Shown here piece after piece: positions 1-8,184 of a stretch of 63,911 nucleotides of DNA. Each line of letters starts with the position of its first letter. The first letter of the stretch is position 1. Under the pieces are notes generated by a model that made no database searches, was not told the DNA's origin, and saw nothing but the letters and a program-made list of their open reading frames with translations. The position numbers were made by a program, and so were the translations under genes. This stretch comes from Lentilactobacillus senioris (GTDB lineage: Bacteria; Bacillota; Bacilli; Lactobacillales; Lactobacillaceae), in assembly GCF_026798195.1 (NCBI RefSeq), contig NZ_JAPQEZ010000007.1, forward strand, positions 1 to 63,911, in the 5' to 3' direction.

Positions 1-37
1 GGGGATCGCCCCCTGCGAGGGTAGGACGTTGCCACGC
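1..37 (+). rRNA. rrf: 5S rRNA, 3' end (partial)
   Basis: The first 37 bases match the conserved 3' end of Lactobacillales 5S rRNA (GGGGATCGCCCCCTGCGAGG, then GTAGGACGTTGCCACGC). The rest of the gene lies before the window. A terminator follows about 9 bases later, so this is probably the end of an rRNA operon. Confidence 0.85.
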
Positions 38-45
38 TAATTGAT

Positions 46-79
46 AAAAAGGATCTCTATAAATAGAGGTCCTTTTTTT
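46..79 (+). terminator. Rho-independent terminator of the rRNA operon
   Basis: A 13-bp stem (AAAGGATCTCTAT pairing with ATAGAGGTCCTTT, one G-U) is followed by a run of eight T. It closes the upstream rRNA operon. Confidence 0.85.
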
Positions 80-97
80 TGTGTCCAAAAATAGAAA

Positions 98-148
98 TTG
101 ACAAATTGTTGGTAAAAAGTTATTATAGCTGTAACTTATGTTGTTACA
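98..148 (+). promoter_or_regulatory. Promoter and candidate Rrf2 operator
   Basis: TTGACA at 98-103 and TATTAT at 121-126 are separated by 17 bases. Directly downstream, TGTAAC (130-135) and GTTACA (143-148) form a perfect 6-bp inverted repeat with a 7-base centre, covering the expected transcription start. The placement suits autorepression by the Rrf2 protein encoded 17 bases further on; that assignment is inference. Confidence 0.7.
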
Positions 149-164
149 ATAAAATGGAGGTACT

Positions 165-614
165 ATGAAGTTATCTACACGTTTTAGTGATGCTATCCAT
201 ATCTTAGCGTATCTAAAAATATATCAAAATACTAAGCTTTCCAGTGAAGAAATTGCGGCTAGTATTATGACATCACCAGTAGTAGTTCGTCGGTTAATGA
301 GTAAATTAAAGGCCGCTGGGTTAATTCAAACTATCTCTGGCACTCCAGCCCCCAGTCTAACCAAAGAAACTGATCAAATTACACTGTTAGATATTTATTT
401 TGCAATTGAAGGTCATACGGAACTATTTAATATTGATCACCAAACTAATCCTAATTGTATTGTGGGGGGAAATATTCAACAGGTTTTAGCGCAGTATTAT
501 GATGAAGCTCAGTTAGCTGCTCAACAGAAATTACAATCTATTACTTTAGCGAATATAATTGACAGCATTATGACTAAGCAAGCCTTAAAAGAAAGAGGAA
601 ATTTAAATGACTAA
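165..614 (+). CDS. Rrf2 family transcriptional regulator
   Basis: A 149-residue protein with an N-terminal winged helix (about residues 1-60) and the Rrf2 pattern ending in ITLLDIY. It has a single cysteine, Cys98, in an NPNCIVG motif like that of YwnA-type Rrf2 proteins; it lacks the three-cysteine cluster that binds Fe-S in IscR/NsrR, so a thiol switch is more likely than a cluster. The SD TGGAGG precedes the ATG. The end overlaps the next gene by 8 bases, so the two are probably cotranscribed. Family certain; the signal sensed is unknown. Confidence 0.88.
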   Translation: MKLSTRFSDAIHILAYLKIYQNTKLSSEEIAASIMTSPVVVRRLMSKLKAAGLIQTISGTPAPSLTKETDQITLLDIYFAIEGHTELFNIDHQTNPNCIVGGNIQQVLAQYYDEAQLAAQQKLQSITLANIIDSIMTKQALKERGNLND

Positions 615-1470
615 ATATATAGTTACCGGAGCAACTGGCAATTTAGGTAAACGGGTAGTTGCTGATTTACTAAACTTTACTGTTGCTGGCGATATAACAG
701 CGGCAGTACACAGTCTCAATAAAGCGAAATACCTAGTTCAATCAGAAATTAATGTTCAAGCAATTGACTACCTAAATCCGCAAACGATGGTACCGGTATT
801 TTCTAAAGCAGATGTTTTAGTCTATATTCCCAGCAAAACTTATAACATTGTGCAACGAGTACAGGAATTAGAAAACGTGTTAGCTGCGATGCAAGCTGCT
901 AACATGACAGAAATGATTTTTGTGAGTTTTTACGCTGATCAAGAAAACAATCCATTTACGATGTCAGGATATTACGGTTATGCGCCTAGACGATTGGCAG
1001 CGGCTGGAATTAAATACGCGGTACTGAAAAATTCACTTTATACCGATCCATTAATTCCCTATTTACCAGAATTAATAGAGCGTAAAGCTTTAATTTATCC
1101 GGTTGGTGACCAAAAAATGAGTTTTATTAGTTATGATAATAGTGCTGAAGCGATTGCTAAAGTGGCGGTTACTCCGGAATTACGTAATCAGGGGCAAATT
1201 TACACGTTGACTCAAAATGAGGCACTAGATATGCAGACTTTAGGCAAAATTATGACGACGGTTACTGGTCATCAAATTGGTTATCAACCAGTTAGTGTAA
1301 CTGAGTTTGCGGAAATTTATGCGGCTGAAGGAGACGGGACTGAATTGGCTTCCATGTATCAGGCCGGTAGGCTAGGCTTATTTGATGTTGTCACTAGTGA
1401 TTTTGAGACCATCACCGGTAAACAACCGACAGATATGCTGACCTTTTTAAAACTGAATTATCATGAATAG
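607..1470 (+). CDS. NmrA-like NAD(P)-binding reductase (quinone oxidoreductase 2 type)
   Basis: A 287-residue short-chain-dehydrogenase-like protein. It begins with a beta strand and the dinucleotide loop GATGNLG (residues 8-14), and has the length and overall pattern of NmrA/QOR2-type enzymes (YtfG, YwnB), which reduce quinones or act as NAD(P)H sensors. The start codon overlaps the Rrf2 gene and has SD AGAGGAA. Pairing of an Rrf2 regulator with such a reductase is common and points to electrophile, quinone or disulfide stress. The substrate cannot be read from the sequence. Confidence 0.82.
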   Translation: MTKYIVTGATGNLGKRVVADLLNFTVAGDITAAVHSLNKAKYLVQSEINVQAIDYLNPQTMVPVFSKADVLVYIPSKTYNIVQRVQELENVLAAMQAANMTEMIFVSFYADQENNPFTMSGYYGYAPRRLAAAGIKYAVLKNSLYTDPLIPYLPELIERKALIYPVGDQKMSFISYDNSAEAIAKVAVTPELRNQGQIYTLTQNEALDMQTLGKIMTTVTGHQIGYQPVSVTEFAEIYAAEGDGTELASMYQAGRLGLFDVVTSDFETITGKQPTDMLTFLKLNYHE

Positions 1471-1490
1471 TTACAGTGAAAGGAGTTTAA

Positions 1491-3020
1491 ATGAACGAAT
1501 TAATTAATACTTTTGTAGCTCAACGCCATGAACTGTGGATTGCGCTAGGGCAACATTTGGAAATCTCATTAATTTCTTTGATTATTGCATTAGTGTTAGC
1601 GATGCCACTGGCAATTTGGGCAACTCGGCATAAACGGGTGGCAGAGCTGCTCCTTCAAATTAACAGCGTTTTTCAAACGATTCCGTCCTTAGCACTGCTG
1701 GGGTTATTGATTCCACTGGTAGGGATTGGAACTGCTCCGTCCATTATTGCATTAGTAATTTATGCCTTGCTACCTATATTTCAAAATACATACATAGGAA
1801 TTGCTGAGATCGATCCGTCTCTTGAAGAGGCCGCCGATGCCTTTGGAATGCGACCAATTCAAAAATTATTTAAGGTGGAATTACCAATTGCCATGCCAGT
1901 GATTATCTCGGGTATTAGAACGGCAATGGTTTTAATTGTGGGAACCGCGACTTTAGCTGCGTTAATTGGAGCCGGTGGGTTAGGTAATTTTATTTTGCTG
2001 GGAATTAATCGAGATGATCCAGCATTAATTTTACTAGGAGCAATTAGTTCAGCAGTTTTGGCAATTATTTTAAGTAGTTTAATTAAGTTAGCCGAAAAAT
2101 TGACCCCTAAAAAAATGTTGTTGGTGTTAGGCACAATTTTAGTGCTTTTTGCTGGGGGAGTGGGAATTGCCACCTTAGCTCCTAAACCAGAAAAAATCGT
2201 GATTGCTGGCAAATTAGGATCAGAACCGGATATTTTAATTAATATGTATAAGGATTTGATTAAACAAGAAGATCCAAAAGCTAAGGTAGAATTAAAAAAT
2301 AATTTTGGTGAAACGTCTTTCTTGTTCAGTGCCTTAAAGAGCGATGAAATTGATGTTTATCCGGAATTTACCGGAACGGTATTAACCACGTTAGTTAAAA
2401 ACGGGGCGCCTAGCCAGCCACTGTCTGAACAACAAACTTACAATCGGGCTGCTAAGTTGGTTCAACAGCAATACCAAATGAAGTACTTAGCACCTATGAA
2501 GTACGAAAATACTTTTGCCCTAGCAGTTAAGACTAGTTTTTCCAAGAAATATCATCTCAAATCCATTGCGGATTTAAAGCGGGTGCAATCTAAATTACAT
2601 GCTGGCTTTTCACAAGAATTTGCTAACCGAGAAGATGGTTGGCTGGGAATTCAAAAGAAATATCAAATTGATTTTCCTGTTAAACAAATGCAACCGTCAT
2701 TACGTTACGAAGCCATTACTAAAAATGATATTAATATTTGTGATGTTTACACTACTGACAGCCAGATTAAACAGTACCACCTAACGGTATTGAGTGATCC
2801 GGAGCACGTTTTCCCTCCTTACCAGGGAGCGCCGTTGATGAAAACTCAGTTTGCTGATCAGCACCCTAAGGTAGTAACCGCATTAAATCAACTGCGAGGA
2901 AAAATCACTGCTGAACAGATGCGCCAAATGAATTATGAAGTTAACGTGCAAAAACGCTCAGCGGCTGAGGTGGCAAAACGTTATCTGCAAGAAGAAGGCC
3001 TCTTGAAGGGAAGTGAATAA
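1491..3020 (+). CDS. Fused permease/substrate-binding protein, OpuB/ProWX type (quaternary amine or ergothioneine uptake)
   Basis: A 509-residue fusion. Residues 1-205 form the membrane permease with the EAA loop (about 113-132, EEAADAFGMRP...LP) that docks the ATPase. Residues 209-228 are a further membrane anchor, and 233-509 an extracytoplasmic OpuAC-like binding domain with YPEFTGT and REDGWLG signatures. Known relatives import glycine betaine, carnitine or choline, and a subset (EgtU of pneumococcus and other Firmicutes) imports ergothioneine. It sits 20 bases after the reductase gene and abuts its ATPase gene. Permease/binding fusion is certain; the substrate is open. Confidence 0.88.
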   Translation: MNELINTFVAQRHELWIALGQHLEISLISLIIALVLAMPLAIWATRHKRVAELLLQINSVFQTIPSLALLGLLIPLVGIGTAPSIIALVIYALLPIFQNTYIGIAEIDPSLEEAADAFGMRPIQKLFKVELPIAMPVIISGIRTAMVLIVGTATLAALIGAGGLGNFILLGINRDDPALILLGAISSAVLAIILSSLIKLAEKLTPKKMLLVLGTILVLFAGGVGIATLAPKPEKIVIAGKLGSEPDILINMYKDLIKQEDPKAKVELKNNFGETSFLFSALKSDEIDVYPEFTGTVLTTLVKNGAPSQPLSEQQTYNRAAKLVQQQYQMKYLAPMKYENTFALAVKTSFSKKYHLKSIADLKRVQSKLHAGFSQEFANREDGWLGIQKKYQIDFPVKQMQPSLRYEAITKNDINICDVYTTDSQIKQYHLTVLSDPEHVFPPYQGAPLMKTQFADQHPKVVTALNQLRGKITAEQMRQMNYEVNVQKRSAAEVAKRYLQEEGLLKGSE

Positions 3021-3986
3021 ATGGCAACGCCAATGATTGAATTTCGCCATGTTAAAAAAGAATTTGAAAACACTCAAGCGGTTAAAGATCTTAGTTTTAT
3101 TGTTGCTCAAGGTGAATTATTTGTGTTAGTCGGTACGTCAGGCAGTGGCAAAACCACTACCTTAAAGATGATTAACCAACTGATCGTTCAAACTAGCGGT
3201 GATATTTTAATTGATAACAAACGAGCTAAAGACTATGATCTCCGCCAATTAAGACTCAACATTGGTTATGTGCTTCAACAAATTGCGTTGTTTCCAACGA
3301 TGACCGTGAAACAAAATGTAGCGGTGATCTTAGAATTAAAGCATACGGCTAAAAAAGAAATTGACCAACGAGTAGACGAACTATTAAGGGGCGTGGACTT
3401 AGACCCCGAAAAGTATCGAGATCGTTACCCACGAGAACTATCGGGAGGTGAGCAACAACGTATCGGTATTATTCGAGCCATGGCTGCTAATCCACCAGTA
3501 ATTTTATTTGACGAACCATTTAGTGCCTTAGATCCAATCGTTAGAAACCAACTTCAGGATTTAGTATTACGCATTCACAAACAGTATCAAACTACGATTG
3601 TATTTGTGACTCATGATATGAACGAGGCCCTTAAGTTGGGTGATCGAATTGGAGTAATGAGTCACGGAGAATTACTCCAGGTTGGTATCCCGACGGAAAT
3701 TGCCCAGCATCCAGTGAATCAATTTGTGGAAGACTTTTTTGCGGCAACTGTGGGCAAAAACTTGTATGATACACCTGTGGATAAAATTATTAAAACTGGT
3801 TATCAGATTCAACGCCCAACGGCAGCTACTGATTTGCCGGTAGTAGCTAGCGAGGCGACGTTAGAAGAAGTTTTTGTTATCCTAGCTTCTAACGAGGTAG
3901 TTGAAGTCCGTGATGAAACTGAACAGCCGGTTGGTTGGTTAGACCGGCAATCCATTATACGGTATTTAAGCGAAGTCAAACATTAG
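3021..3986 (+). CDS. ABC transporter ATP-binding protein, OpuA/ProV type
   Basis: A 321-residue ATPase with Walker A GTSGSGKTT (38-46), signature LSGGEQQRIGI, Walker B VILFDEPFSALDP and the H-loop VTHDMNEA. The C-terminal ~70 residues resemble a shortened CBS-like tail, as in OpuCA-type ATPases that respond to ionic strength or c-di-AMP. The gene starts directly after the stop codon of the fused permease, so the two clearly form one transporter. Confidence 0.9.
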   Translation: MATPMIEFRHVKKEFENTQAVKDLSFIVAQGELFVLVGTSGSGKTTTLKMINQLIVQTSGDILIDNKRAKDYDLRQLRLNIGYVLQQIALFPTMTVKQNVAVILELKHTAKKEIDQRVDELLRGVDLDPEKYRDRYPRELSGGEQQRIGIIRAMAANPPVILFDEPFSALDPIVRNQLQDLVLRIHKQYQTTIVFVTHDMNEALKLGDRIGVMSHGELLQVGIPTEIAQHPVNQFVEDFFAATVGKNLYDTPVDKIIKTGYQIQRPTAATDLPVVASEATLEEVFVILASNEVVEVRDETEQPVGWLDRQSIIRYLSEVKH

Positions 3987-3998
3987 TGGAGGTGCAAG

Positions 3999-5327
3999 AT
4001 GAATCAATTTGAAACGGTAATTATCGGTGGCGGTCCTGCAGGATTAGGATTAGCCTATCCACTGCATGCGGCAGGTCAAAAAGTAGCGGTGGTAGAAGAA
4101 AATAAGTGGGGGGGAACTTGTCCTAACCGCGGCTGTGACCCTAAGAAAGTTTTATTGGGTGCGGTAGAAGCTCAGACTAAGAGTAGTCAGTTAGTGGGAC
4201 ACGGGTTAGAACAAGCGCCGCAAATTAACTGGCCCCAACTAATGAAATTTAAACAGACGTTTACCGATCCGGTCTCAGTTAATTCTAGAGCCGGTTTAGT
4301 GGCTGCTGGGATTGACGTTTTTGACGGTCACGCCAGTTTTGTGGATAACCACACCTTAAGTGTTGGTGAACAAACTATCACTGCTGATTGTTTTGTGATT
4401 GCTACTGGTCAACGGCCTGGACGGTTGAATGTTCCAGGGGATGAATACTTACTGACCAGTACCGATTTTTTGGCGTTACCAACCATGCCGGCCAAAGTTG
4501 CGTTTATCGGTGGGGGTTACATTGCTTTTGAATTAGCGGCAATTGCTGCTGCAGCTGGCGCTGAAGTGCATATTATTCATCACAATGAGCGACCATTAAA
4601 ACAATTTGCGCAAGATGCGGTGACTGAATTAATGAAGCAACTCGAAGCTAAGGGTGTTCAATTTGATTTGAATGTAGAAACCCAAGCAATTAAACGTGAA
4701 GCTGATCAAGTCGTGATTCAAGCGGCTGATTATGAACTTTCAGTGGATCAAGCCTTCGTTACTAGTGGCCGGGTTGCTAATGCTGATACGTTAAATTTAG
4801 CTGCTATCGGAGTAGAAGCTGATCGTCACGGAGTGGTGGTTAATGATCATCTCCAAACTGCTCAACCCAATATCTATGCAATGGGGGATGTAGTAGCCAA
4901 ACGGCTGCCTAAGCTAACTCCGGTGGCCGGTTTCGAGGCTGCTTATTTAAGTCGGGAATTGGTTAAAACAGGAGCGGCAATTAACTATCCAGAAATTCCT
5001 ACGGTAGTCTTTGGAATGCCCCGATTGGCTCAAGTAGGAATTAGTTGGCAAACTGATCAGGAGCAATCCGATAAGTATCGTAGTCAAGTAATCGATATGA
5101 CTAATTGGTTTACTTATAAACATTTAAATGAGCCGCTGGCTAAAGCATGGATGGTAGTGGATAAACAAACGGATCAAATTGTGGGAGCTACCGTTATTAG
5201 TAACGAGGCTGAGACCTTAGTGAACTATTTGACTCAGATTATTAATGCTGGTCAAACAATGAAGCAAGTTAAGGACCAAGTTTTCTTATATCCTACGGAA
5301 GCTAGTGATTTAGAATATTTAGGCTAA
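3999..5327 (+). CDS. FAD-dependent NAD(P)-disulfide oxidoreductase (glutathione reductase-like)
   Basis: A 442-residue flavoprotein. N-terminal FAD loop GGGPAGLG (10-17), redox-active CPNRGC (Cys41, Cys46), a second Rossmann loop near GGGYIAFE, and the late FAD motif YAMGDV. The C-terminal dimer-interface motif, normally HPT..E with the catalytic His-Glu pair, is YPTEASD here (Tyr431), so the usual base is missing. SD GGAGGTG precedes the ATG, 12 bases after the ATPase gene. Likely reduces a small disulfide, or is a divergent member whose real substrate is unknown. Confidence 0.85.
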   Translation: MNQFETVIIGGGPAGLGLAYPLHAAGQKVAVVEENKWGGTCPNRGCDPKKVLLGAVEAQTKSSQLVGHGLEQAPQINWPQLMKFKQTFTDPVSVNSRAGLVAAGIDVFDGHASFVDNHTLSVGEQTITADCFVIATGQRPGRLNVPGDEYLLTSTDFLALPTMPAKVAFIGGGYIAFELAAIAAAAGAEVHIIHHNERPLKQFAQDAVTELMKQLEAKGVQFDLNVETQAIKREADQVVIQAADYELSVDQAFVTSGRVANADTLNLAAIGVEADRHGVVVNDHLQTAQPNIYAMGDVVAKRLPKLTPVAGFEAAYLSRELVKTGAAINYPEIPTVVFGMPRLAQVGISWQTDQEQSDKYRSQVIDMTNWFTYKHLNEPLAKAWMVVDKQTDQIVGATVISNEAETLVNYLTQIINAGQTMKQVKDQVFLYPTEASDLEYLG

Positions 5328-5328
5328 T

Positions 5329-5366
5329 AAAAAGGATTTTGACAAAAGTCAAAATCCTTTTTTTGT
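5329..5366. terminator. Bidirectional terminator
   Basis: A perfect 15-bp stem (AAAAAGGATTTTGAC / GTCAAAATCCTTTTT) with an AAAA loop lies between the convergent oxidoreductase and purB genes. A-rich and T-rich flanks let it work on both strands. Confidence 0.88.
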
Positions 5367-5369
5367 TGC

Positions 5370-6665
5370 TCATAACAAGCCTAATCGGCGATAAATATCA
5401 TCTACGTGACGCAAATGGTAGTGGTAATCAAAAGCGTCCGCAATGTCCGCTGCTGAAAGGACGTTAGTGATTTCAGGATTATTCTCTACCAGGGCTCTGA
5501 ATTGAACGTGTTGATCCCATGCTTGAGCAGTTAATGGTTGAACTAGATCGTAGGCTGCTTCTCTAGTCAGACCGGCATCAATTAGTTTTAATAAAACGCG
5601 TTGACTATAAATTAAGCCATAAGTTTTATCCAGATTGGCTTCCATCGTTTCAGGAAAGACATCTAGATTAGTTAGCACTCGATTGAAGCGGTTCAACATG
5701 TAATCCACCAAGGTGGTACTGTCAGCTAGAATGATTCGTTCTGCAGACGAATGGGAAATATCTCGTTCATGCCATAAAGAAACGTCTTCATATGCCGGAG
5801 TGATATAACCACGCAAAACTCTGGCTAGACCGGTAATGTTCTCCGAAGAAATCGGGTTCCGTTTGTGGGGCATAGCCGAAGAGCCTTTTTGACCAGGATT
5901 AAAGTGTTCTTCTACTTCATGAATTTCTGATCGCTGTAGACTTCTAATTTCAGTAGCAAATTCTTCTAAGCTAGTGCCAATTAAGGCTAATTCTGCAATG
6001 TACGCAGCGTGAAGATCGCGTGGTAGGACTTGACTTGAAATTTCTTGAGCTTGTAAGCCTAAGAATTGGCAGGTGAGTTCCTCTAACTCTGGGGGCACGT
6101 TGGCGTAAGTGCCCACTGCACCGCTAATTTTGCCACTTTTTAAGTCAGCAGCAACGGTAGCAAAACGATTAATATGTCGGTTGATTTCTGAATACCAACG
6201 AGCTACTTTTAGGCCAAAGGTGGTTGGTTCAGCCTGCACACCATGCGTTCGACCAATCATAACGGTATCTTTATATTTAAGAGCGAGGTTTCTTAAGGTT
6301 GTTAATAATTCTTGTAAATCAGCTGCAATTACATCATTAGCTTGAGCTAACCGTAAAGCCTGAGCGGTATCCACCACGTCAGTGCTGGTAACACCGTAAT
6401 GAATCCAACGACTTTCATCGCCTAGAGATTCTGACACGTCACGGGTAAATGCTACTACGTCGTGGTGGGTGGTAGCTTCAATTTCAGCAATGCGGTCTGT
6501 ATCGAACTTCGCGTTAGCTTCGATTAAAGCGAGGTCACTATCGGGGACTACTCCCAGTTGATTCCAGGCTTTATCGATGGCAATTTCGACGGTAAGCCAT
6601 GTTTGGTATTGATTTTTTAACGACCAAATTTGTTCCATTACGGGCCGACTGTATCTTGATAGCAT
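5370..6665 (-). CDS. purB: Adenylosuccinate lyase
   Basis: A 431-residue fumarase/aspartase-superfamily enzyme. It has the signature GSSAMPHKRNP (261-271, catalytic serine loop) and the RTHGVQAEP segment with catalytic His141. It cleaves adenylosuccinate to AMP and fumarate, and SAICAR to AICAR. Length is normal. SD GAAGGAG lies before the ATG. It diverges from purA across 232 bases with PurBox-like sites, consistent with PurR control. Confidence 0.97.
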   Translation of the reverse strand: MLSRYSRPVMEQIWSLKNQYQTWLTVEIAIDKAWNQLGVVPDSDLALIEANAKFDTDRIAEIEATTHHDVVAFTRDVSESLGDESRWIHYGVTSTDVVDTAQALRLAQANDVIAADLQELLTTLRNLALKYKDTVMIGRTHGVQAEPTTFGLKVARWYSEINRHINRFATVAADLKSGKISGAVGTYANVPPELEELTCQFLGLQAQEISSQVLPRDLHAAYIAELALIGTSLEEFATEIRSLQRSEIHEVEEHFNPGQKGSSAMPHKRNPISSENITGLARVLRGYITPAYEDVSLWHERDISHSSAERIILADSTTLVDYMLNRFNRVLTNLDVFPETMEANLDKTYGLIYSQRVLLKLIDAGLTREAAYDLVQPLTAQAWDQHVQFRALVENNPEITNVLSAADIADAFDYHYHLRHVDDIYRRLGLL

Positions 6666-6897: not shown

Positions 6898-8184
6898 ATG
6901 GCAACAATCGTTGTGGTCGGAGCTCAATGGGGCGATGAAGGTAAAGGTAAAATTACGGATTTTCTAGGACAAAAGGCGGATGTAATCGCTCGTTATCAAG
7001 GTGGCGACAACGCTGGTCATAGCATTGTTTTCAATGGCAAACGCTTTGCATTACAATTAATGCCGTCTGGTATTTTTGCAGATGATAAGTTATGTGTAAT
7101 TGGCAATGGAGTGGTAGTAAATCCTGAAGCTTTAGTTAAGGAAATTAAATACCTGAATGATAACGGTATTGATACCAGTAATTTACGGATTTCTAACCGT
7201 GCCAACGTAATCTTTCCATATCACCGCCTACAAGACGAATATGAAGAAGAACTCAAAACTAACAAAATCGGTACCACTAAGAAGGGAATCGGTCCGGCTT
7301 ATATGGACAAAGCCGAACGAATTGGCATCCGGATGGTTGATTTGTTAGACGAAGAAATTTTAACTAACAAGTTGCAAGAAAATCTCAAAATTAAAAATAA
7401 ACTCTTTGCGGCAATGTACAATAAACCAGAAATTGAGTTAGAACCATTGTTAAATCGTTACCTAGAGCTAGGGCAACAATTAAAGGACTACATTGTGGAT
7501 ACTTCAGAATTGGTCAATGAAGCTGTGGATAACGGTGAAAAAGTCTTGTTTGAAGGTGCTCAAGGCACCATGTTAGACCTTGATCATGGGACTTATCCAT
7601 TCGTGACCTCCTCTAACCCAGCTGGTGGAGTCACTACCGGGATCGGAATCGGGGCTCCGTTGATTGATAACGTGGTGGGAGTATGTAAAGCCTACACTTC
7701 TAAAGTTGGTGAAGGTCCGTTCCCAACTGAATTGTTAAATGAAACCGGTGATTATATTAGAGAAACTGCACATGAATACGGAGTGGTTACTAAACGGCCA
7801 CGCAGAATTGGCTGGTTTGATGCGGTTGTTTTACAACATGCTAAACGAGTAGCTGGCTTTACGCACTTATCCGTGAACTGTTTGGATGTTTTGTCCCATA
7901 TCGAAACTGTAAAAATTTGTGTGGCTTATCGGCTCAATGGCGAAGTGATTCACCGTTATCCCGCTAGCATCAAAGAAATTGAACAGTGTGAACCAATTTA
8001 TGAAGAAATGCCGGGCTGGGATGAAGACATTACCGGGGTTCATGAATTAGCTGAATTGCCAACTAACGCAAGAAACTATCTTAAGCGTTTAAGTGAAATT
8101 ATTGGGGTGCCAATTGCCACTTTTTCAGTAGGACCAGATCGAGAACAAACTAACGTATTAGATCCAATTTGGGAGAGTAAGTAA
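6898..8184 (+). CDS. purA: Adenylosuccinate synthetase
   Basis: A 428-residue GTP-dependent enzyme that joins IMP and aspartate. The N-terminal loop [11 protein letters not shown] (8-18) carries catalytic Asp13, followed by GGDNAGHS. The IMP-binding segment TKKGIGPAY and the C-terminal GPDREQT are present. Length is typical. SD GAGGTG. Its stop codon overlaps the guaC start by one base, so the two are translationally coupled. Confidence 0.98.

Follow-up and report, generated by a model that had tools for sequence, protein, structure and literature searches.

Organization of the locus

Positions 98 to 5,366 of a 63,911-nucleotide Lentilactobacillus contig (NZ_JAPQEZ010000007.1; the whole stretch is called the window) hold five genes on the + strand. 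They encode an Rrf2-family regulator, an NmrA-type reductase, the fused permease and binding protein (EgtUBC) and the ATPase (EgtUA) of an EgtU-type transporter, and a flavin disulfide reductase (FDR) (Table 1). The open reading frames (ORFs) occupy 165–5327, with gaps of −8, 20, 0 and 12 bases. A prediction made earlier from the DNA alone (the original prediction) had placed them behind one promoter with a TGTAAC-N7-GTTACA palindrome, with gaps of at most 20 bases and a terminator at the cluster end. Every coordinate that we checked (ORFs, promoter, palindrome and terminator) was correct, and the palindrome was exact.

The promoter matched the consensus at 11 of 12 positions and ranked first among the 17 promoter-like sites in 1–6600. 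Shuffled sequences gave 16.9 ± 4.1 such sites, so that the total lies at chance level and the scan gives no evidence for or against internal promoters. The operator begins 3 bases past the end of the −10 element, over the likely transcription start, and a protein bound to it would therefore cover that start.

Table 1. Features of the gene cluster and its borders
Feature	Position	Strand	Basis
Promoter, −35 TTGACA and −10 TATTAT, spacer 17	98–126	+	Promoter scan; similar layout before the Rrf2 genes of L092 (L. senioris) and L097 (L. kribbianus)
Operator TGTAAC-N7-GTTACA (= TGTAA-N9-TTACA)	130–148		Arms 130–135 and 143–148, exact; consensus as given in PMC9218516
Rrf2-family predicted repressor, YwnA/SifR type, single Cys98	165–614	+	Pfam, PDB matches, cysteine count
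NmrA-type NAD(P)H-binding reductase, YtfG-like (presumably QOR2-like), atypical short-chain dehydrogenase/reductase	607–1470	+	Pfam NmrA and NAD_binding_10; PDB
EgtUBC, permease fused to predicted ergothioneine-binding domain	1491–3020	+	PDB matches; ligand residues
EgtUA, transporter ATPase	3021–3986	+	Pfam ABC_tran 3e-35; NCBIfam ProV best model
FAD/NAD(P)H disulfide reductase (FDR), GbsMerA type: Cys41-Cys46, Asp47, Tyr431	3999–5327	+	8k40 match; motif counts
Intrinsic terminator, 15-pair stem and T run	5329–5362	+	Lies between operon and convergent ORF
Terminator-like site upstream, separating operon from preceding DNA	46–77	+	Sequence scan
Convergent ORF, adenylosuccinate-lyase-like by eye	5370–6665	convergent	ORF list

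The transporter carries ligand residues of EgtU

The closest solved structures to EgtUBC were Lmo1422/BilEB (4z7e, 6.2e-85) and S. pneumoniae EgtUC (7txl, 2.6e-81; 9egi, 2.9e-81), and choline/betaine binders matched far more weakly (1e-46 and beyond). The permease is fused to an OpuAC-type binding domain and the ATPase gene abuts at 3021; the best NCBIfam model for EgtUA was ProV, with 295.9 bits, below its cut-off of 326.6. Fourteen ligand-pocket residues of EgtU are named in PMC9732360. In a 132-row alignment, 11 of the 14 were identical in the window (Lys242, Gly244, Thr275, Phe293, Thr296, Tyr337, Asn339, Glu375, Arg379, Tyr419 and Tyr443; signature KLGETFTYNFERYY), the differences being I243L, T274E and Y341F. 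According to the same paper, E375Q lowered the affinity for ergothioneine about 500-fold, the affinity of Listeria BilEB for ergothioneine equals that of pneumococcal EgtUC, and EgtUC binds betaine weakly, at mM (PMC9732360).

The pair Glu375 and Arg379 was kept in all 63 FDR-linked and all 17 other named EgtUs, and in 20 of 20 class-level rows; among the FDR-linked rows of the family, Glu375 occurred in 20 of 21 and Arg379 in 19 of 21. Moreover, Leu243 was the commonest residue in every EgtU set except the one linked to Rrf2/NmrA, and Phe341, which retains the aromatic character, was also present in 10 of the 63 FDR-linked named EgtUs. On its pocket residues, the transporter very probably imports ergothioneine, the ligand in this species being predicted, and ergothioneine is most likely the thiol of the acquisition unit. 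A generic OpuB/choline transporter was dropped as a reading on the same residues: the original prediction was right that the transporter is a fused one, and the OpuB label gives way to ergothioneine determinants.

At ten loci (L038–L047, "type B"; genomes G130, G102, G003, G075, G074, G134, G083, G110, G052 and G088), a sister of EgtU with the gene order EgtUA-EgtUBC has Rrf2 and/or NmrA genes as neighbours; the loci were chosen for that linkage.

The linkage of EgtU to the disulfide reductase extends well beyond Lentilactobacillus

EgtU scored above 500 bits in 100 of 151 family genomes, with 108 copies. An FDR gene lay within 6 kb of at least 54 of these copies, in at least 52 genomes and at least 17 genus labels; FDR matches down to 296 bits were used, and this linkage is therefore a lower bound. 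A 2-Mb genome has about one strong FDR, and on this basis we estimate that chance would give fewer than two such neighbours. In addition, a count of neighbours in 80 named loci, made without prior choice of family, gave the FDR as the commonest after the ATPase (63 loci, 14 of 19 genus labels), well ahead of the second-ranked family with 9 loci. The original prediction had named the lack of a conserved neighbourhood in related genomes as a result that would speak against it; the linkage at 63 of the 80 loci is the opposite. The conserved neighbourhood is a smaller one than it had foreseen, since the string EgtUBC-EgtUA-FDR is common and all five genes were seen together in only three Lentilactobacillus species.

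Gene orders varied (EgtUBC-EgtUA-FDR, FDR upstream, divergent, convergent, or with a 2-kb insert). In a Bacilli genus with genomes of 6.4–7.6 Mb, the FDR gene lay just downstream of EgtUBC in 9 of 10 EgtU genomes, and five loci fetched from it had the order EgtUA-EgtUBC-FDR. In the tree, the FDRs of this genus are a clade of their own (100/100), next to unlinked enzymes, and the EgtU–FDR linkage therefore probably arose at least twice. Furthermore, among the matches listed (25 of 278 plasmid records), 18 of the 21 records with EgtU have an FDR gene about 1 kb away; NZ_CP030101 (2.9 Mb) has the two genes about 10 kb apart, and for NZ_CP102520 and NZ_CP064300 an FDR is not among the matches listed. 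Counts made by hand are those of the 17 genus labels, of the 18 plasmids among 21 and of the nine genomes from the class survey described below. The unit that is widespread lacks Rrf2 and NmrA and consists of EgtUBC-EgtUA-FDR, and the five-gene unit is narrow.

The plasmid-borne cassettes (L219, L220, L222, L229 and others) were found in Leuconostoc, Ligilactobacillus salivarius, Liquorilactobacillus, Lacticaseibacillus and Enterococcus, and recombinase or insertion sequence genes lay near the cassette in four plasmids that were read. On the L. parabuchneri plasmid pLPBN-1 (L221), the FDR gene and EgtU are divergent, a MarR gene comes after the FDR gene, and copper and arsenic genes lie near.

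The reductase resembles GbsMerA

The FDR carries CPNRGC (Cys41 and Cys46), Asp47 and Tyr431; glutathione reductase (GR) and RclA have the catalytic His in the place of Tyr431. Its nearest solved enzyme was GbsMerA (8k40; 1.2e-85, 291 bits over the whole length), which shares the Asp and the Tyr; its activity is 474.7 μmol/min/mg on Hg(II) and 97.3 μmol/min/mg on glutathione disulfide (GSSG) (PMC10587081). All curated models scored below their cut-offs: GR, the best, gave 304.6 bits against 480, MerA 276.2 against 454.45, RclA 204.8 against 740 and Har 209.3 against 650. The His-x4-Glu pair of RclA/Har, the hypothiocyanous acid reductase, is absent (Tyr431/Ser436), as is the C-terminal Cys-Cys pair of classical MerA, the only cysteines being at 41, 46 and 131. 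The Tyr of the GSSG site of GR is replaced by Ser96.

These features are shared by the EgtU-linked enzymes. Cys41, Cys46, Asp47 and Tyr431 did not vary among the 85 linked rows, which hold 76 distinct sequences, and the position that we take to be Tyr114 in GR numbering was Ser or Thr in 80 of the 85 and never Tyr; the group first had 86 rows, from which a mercuric-reductase-like stray neighbour (L166, 4433–6328) was left out. Among 13 unlinked family FDRs, three had Tyr431 and four had Asp47, and 5 of 7 unlinked enzymes of other Bacilli had both; the motif is therefore not confined to EgtU loci. Judged by motif and nearest structure, the FDR is a GbsMerA-type enzyme and not a canonical GR.

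The genome of the window has five other members of the class; none of the four that were scanned scored above the GR cut-off, and the fifth is the rhodanese-fused L215. No match above the cut-off was found for gshF in this genome. A second, unlinked FDR (G000:C1:210946-212250) carries the motif GCNAK, with Phe where His or Tyr usually stands, and similar proteins occur in several other family genomes.

In L. plantarum, the EgtU-linked FDR gene is presumably lp_0369. Several genes of this species are named gshR, and GshR1 (lp_0369) was observed in two more bile-tolerant strains but not in a sensitive one (PMC3073879). The names gshR2 (lp_1253) and gshR4 (PMC8772861, PMC6759512), and L. buchneri gshR1 and gshR3, which are up under air (PMC4521753), are not tied to the EgtU-linked gene in these sources. 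The main text of PMC4600210, on phenolics and L. plantarum, does not contain "glutathione reductase", gshR, choline, glycine betaine, lp0273 or Rrf2. Phage copies of the FDR gene from L. plantarum were sought with megablast, which reaches close DNA only, and no match was found.

The regulator fits the monothiol quinone-sensor class

The regulator matched Pfam Rrf2 (8.9e-30), and its nearest solved relatives were 1ylf and B. subtilis YwnA (1xd7). It has one cysteine, Cys98, as the original prediction had counted; this residue aligns with the Cys of YwnA, and its position was kept in 13 of 15 Rrf2 rows, the window included. YwnA/SifR form an Rrf2 class with a single conserved cysteine, SifR senses quinones, and the SifR operator, TGTAA-N9-TTACA, is common to HypR (PMC9218516). 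The palindrome of the window matches this operator exactly and is the sole exact match in the 1.80-Mb genome; the two sites with one mismatch both lie within ORFs. By all signs from the DNA, the Rrf2 protein would be a local, self-regulating repressor, and in all likelihood it controls the operon through the operator at 130–148. Since the regulator fits the monothiol quinone-sensor class, quinones or electrophiles are as likely a signal as disulfide stress. The thiol-sensing repressor of the original prediction therefore holds in class and in the placing of its operator, and its signal is recast.

The partner quinone reductase of the YwnB type was also looked for: 4r01 was absent from the seven PDB matches of the NmrA protein (E ≤ 0.001), whose best matches were 3e48 (1.9e-56), YtfG (2zcu, 1.2e-21) and triphenylmethane reductase (2jl1, 7e-19). 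This absence concerns the partner reductase and not the sensor class of the Rrf2 protein. The NmrA/YtfG-like reductase is the kind for which we assume the name QOR2.

The operator and regulator type recur in other genera

Operator sites matching at 9 or more of 10 positions preceded egtUBC in 12 of 130 upstream regions, and five control palindromes gave 3, 2, 0, 3 and 1 of 130. The 12 regions comprise 7 of 11 named Lactiplantibacillus loci, one further genome under the Lactiplantibacillus label, an uncultured Lactobacillus and an element shared by L166–L168, which occurs in Weissella, Liquorilactobacillus and uncultured Lactobacillus. Of the other Lactiplantibacillus loci, L117 and L126 have sites at 8/10 and L154 and L163 none. 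In 7 of the 12 regions, the −10 element of the best-scoring promoter ends 6–8 bases before the site; L135, L169 and L166–L168 depart from this spacing.

Five Lactiplantibacillus genomes (label g38) carry an Rrf2 relative (162–178 bits) away from EgtU, and these proteins are among the nearest relatives outside Lentilactobacillus. At the start of the Rrf2 gene itself, a site of at least 9/10 was present in all five fetched Lactiplantibacillus loci (L223–L227), and in another genus (L228) in none of one. The neighbours of these Rrf2 genes were genes for a UbiX-family flavin prenyltransferase, a small protein, a TetR protein and an Nramp protein. In the one locus scanned, the UbiX-family neighbour scored 246.7 bits against a cut-off of 188, and the model of VdcB, a hydroxyarylic-acid decarboxylase subunit, gave 270.8 bits, just under its cut-off of 290. 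It is possible that this neighbour links the Lactiplantibacillus Rrf2 sensor to phenolic-acid or catechol chemistry.

A second shared promoter-like element, TATGCTACGAT, was seen by eye upstream of egtUBC in L134–L155 and L166–L169. It lies about 45–75 bases before the egtUBC start codon, downstream of the operator, and is absent in L154.

Conservation of the five-gene unit

The complete unit was found in the window, in L. senioris (L092) and in L. kribbianus (L097). L092 is the nearest named locus, its EgtU being 97% identical to that of the window, which places the window in a Lentilactobacillus close to L. senioris; L097 has the same five genes in the same order, with NmrA split into two frames (7273–7979). 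The operator arms are identical in all three and the spacers all differ (TTATGTT, TTGTTAA and TAATGCG), and the five genes had nonsynonymous to synonymous rate ratios (dN/dS) of 0.043–0.127 against L. senioris. Arms kept while spacers drift, together with low dN/dS, therefore indicate that the palindrome and the unit are more than chance. The named and unnamed locus sets overlap (L037, for example, is L092). Rrf2, NmrA and EgtU-like sister transporter genes also share loci in four other genus labels.

The EgtU of the window is closer to a Pediococcus EgtU (71%) than to those of four other genomes of its own genus (53–58%), which suggests that it was acquired.

Proposed mechanism and alternatives

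We consider it likely that the five genes are a self-regulated redox operon that combines a quinone-type sensor, an ergothioneine importer and two reductases. An Rrf2 dimer on 130–148, over the transcription start, would repress all five genes, expressed as one transcript. Quinones, other electrophiles or oxidants would modify Cys98, and the repressor would leave the operator. The derepressed cell would make a YtfG/QOR2-like NAD(P)H reductase for quinones, EgtUBC/EgtUA would then import ergothioneine, a scavenged thiol antioxidant, and the FDR with NAD(P)H would hold the thiols taken up (ergothioneine and/or mixed disulfides) in the reduced state. The acquisition and recycling unit of the original prediction is borne out insofar as an EgtU-type importer and a disulfide reductase stand in one gene string; recycling is a predicted function. 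Only tentatively do we propose that the FDR may be a bacterial reductase dedicated to ergothioneine (as disulfide or mixed disulfide), which would supply the recycling half that is missing from the use of ergothioneine by bacteria. According to a review (PMC9816654), mammalian thioredoxin reductase, which is also a flavin disulfide reductase, reduces oxidised ergothioneine. It is a selenoenzyme without a link to an importer and, by analogy, a precedent for the chemistry and not for this FDR.

Several observations weigh against this model. For the importer, Y341F falls in the aromatic cage, and among FDR-linked EgtUs L075 carries Asp375/Gln379 and L076 Leu379. None of the ten type B loci has the pair Glu375 and Arg379; their transporters carry Asp375 and Gln or Leu379 and, on these residues, probably have another ligand. 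The Rrf2/NmrA genes beside them are therefore not tied to ergothioneine alone. For the linkage, the FDR is missing in 17 of the 80 named loci, among them those of Tetragenococcus and several others. In a class survey, EgtU occurred in 82 of 220 genomes and an adjacent FDR (E ≤ 1e-85) in 10, namely the window's own genome and the nine of the genus with 6.4–7.6-Mb genomes; the other 72 had no adjacent FDR at this threshold. For the regulation, 118 of the 130 EgtU upstream regions lack a site of 9/10 or better, and the 12 with one are not all independent, L166, L167 and L168 sharing a single site. A nearby Rrf2 gene accompanies at least 11 of the 108 EgtU copies in the family genomes, a lower bound as the Rrf2 list was entered down to about 107 bits. 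A wider regulon in the window's genome was dropped: 85 matches with at most two mismatches stood against 125 for the control pattern, and no second site stood out above the control. PMC9732360 states, in favour of the model, that the pneumococcal egtU operon is regulated partly by SifR, though the same paper calls the regulation of egtU not yet known; spd_1642 is not named in the main text of the SifR paper (PMC9218516). Finally, oxidised ergothioneine can also be repaired by ascorbate, or by glutathione with GR (PMC9816654), and a dedicated ergothioneine reductase is therefore no necessity.

The alternative that we find quite possible is that the FDR reduces disulfides in general (glutathione or mixed) or metals and is co-expressed with EgtU only as both serve oxidative stress. 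GR was its best NCBIfam model, GbsMerA reduces both Hg(II) and GSSG (PMC10587081), the GshR1 (lp_0369) pattern in bile-tolerant L. plantarum (PMC3073879) would fit, and one FDR gene lies near copper and arsenic genes on an L. parabuchneri plasmid. However, the score stays under the curated GR cut-off, two GR features are missing (the catalytic His, replaced by Tyr in 85 of 85 rows, and the Tyr114 position), the genome has no gshF above the cut-off, and a general function alone leaves the EgtU linkage on plasmids and in two clades unexplained. A further alternative concerns the regulator, which might be a HypR-like disulfide or hypochlorite sensor and not a quinone sensor. HypR was its best NCBIfam model, the operator is common to both, and HypR controls merA, a flavin disulfide reductase gene, in the hypR-merA operon (PMC10715087), but the score of 59.7 bits is far under the cut-off of 180, and HypR needs a C33–C99 disulfide (PMC9218516, PMC10715087), whereas the window protein has only Cys98. 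Membership in HypR was rejected on the single cysteine, and we regard a sensor of this kind as rather unlikely.

It is less probable still that the transporter imports another quaternary amine (choline, betaine or carnitine) and that the unit is an osmo/redox operon. Pfam and NCBIfam place the transporter in the betaine/choline family, EgtUC has its weak mM betaine binding (PMC9732360), and Y341F and T274E fall in the pocket; yet Glu375, Arg379, Lys242, Gly244, Phe293 and Tyr337 are kept as in ergothioneine binders, the nearest solved structures bind ergothioneine and the genes are linked to redox enzymes. We find it very improbable that horizontal transfer at an rrn operon brought the five genes together by chance and that they have no joint function. 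Such an origin would agree with the restriction to three species, the nearness of EgtU to Pediococcus and, in L. kribbianus, the position directly 3' of the 5S rRNA gene and the NmrA gene in two frames. Against it, operator arms and reading frames are kept, the same regulator type and operator recur in trans with EgtU-FDR, and Rrf2, NmrA and EgtU-like genes occur together in four other genus labels.

Relation to known systems

EgtU, SifR, hypR-merA and GbsMerA-type enzymes are known already, and the coupling of SifR to EgtU has a precedent. With EgtU of S. pneumoniae (spd_1642-1643) and Listeria BilE, the window shares the fused permease and binding domain, the ATPase partner and 11 of 14 pocket residues, and the expression of S. 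pneumoniae EgtU is likewise described as linked with a quinone sensor of the Rrf2 family (PMC9732360); unlike those two, the window importer has its own Rrf2, YtfG-like reductase and FDR, the order EgtUBC-EgtUA, and the three pocket differences. SifR/YwnA share the aligned single Cys, the operator and an adjoining putative quinone reductase gene (PMC9218516), whereas the Rrf2 gene of the window lies in cis with an importer, its reductase is of the NmrA/YtfG and not the YwnB (4r01) type, and the operon has no iron or CatE genes. S. aureus hypR-merA likewise joins Rrf2 and an FDR in one operon with the same operator (PMC10715087), but the Rrf2 protein of the window has one Cys and not two, its FDR is without the RclA His-Glu pair, and an importer is added. 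GbsMerA shares the CxxxxC motif with Asp, the Tyr for the catalytic His and the lack of a C-terminal Cys pair (PMC10587081), whereas the window FDR is linked to EgtU and not to a mercury operon.

Among the titles and abstracts searched, none described a reductase linked to EgtU or a bacterial enzyme that reduces ergothioneine disulfide, and the cis five-gene unit, the Lactiplantibacillus trans operators and the EgtU-FDR cassette were not found in the literature search. If the FDR is indeed a dedicated ergothioneine reductase, EgtUBC-EgtUA-FDR would be an "acquire and recycle" cassette that moves among lactic acid bacteria on plasmids, under a quinone-sensing Rrf2 in cis in Lentilactobacillus and in trans in Lactiplantibacillus. 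The regulation of egtU and the role of ergothioneine in import-only bacteria are left open by PMC9732360; the present analysis names a regulator, an operator and a candidate partner enzyme for egtU in lactic acid bacteria, including the genetically handled L. plantarum. If the model is right, dietary ergothioneine, quinone stress and microbial thiol pools would become linked.

Borders of the operon

The window ORF list covered positions up to 9000. A defence-system reading was dropped, as a padloc scan matched the ATPase protein only, and an Rfam scan of 1–6000 gave no RNA element up to E 0.1. The start of the window presumably resembles the tail of a 5S rRNA gene. In L. kribbianus L097, a full 5S gene occupies 6413–6529 and the Rrf2 gene begins at 6654. 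In L. kribbianus, the operon therefore directly follows an rrn operon, and the same apparently holds for the window (1–45).

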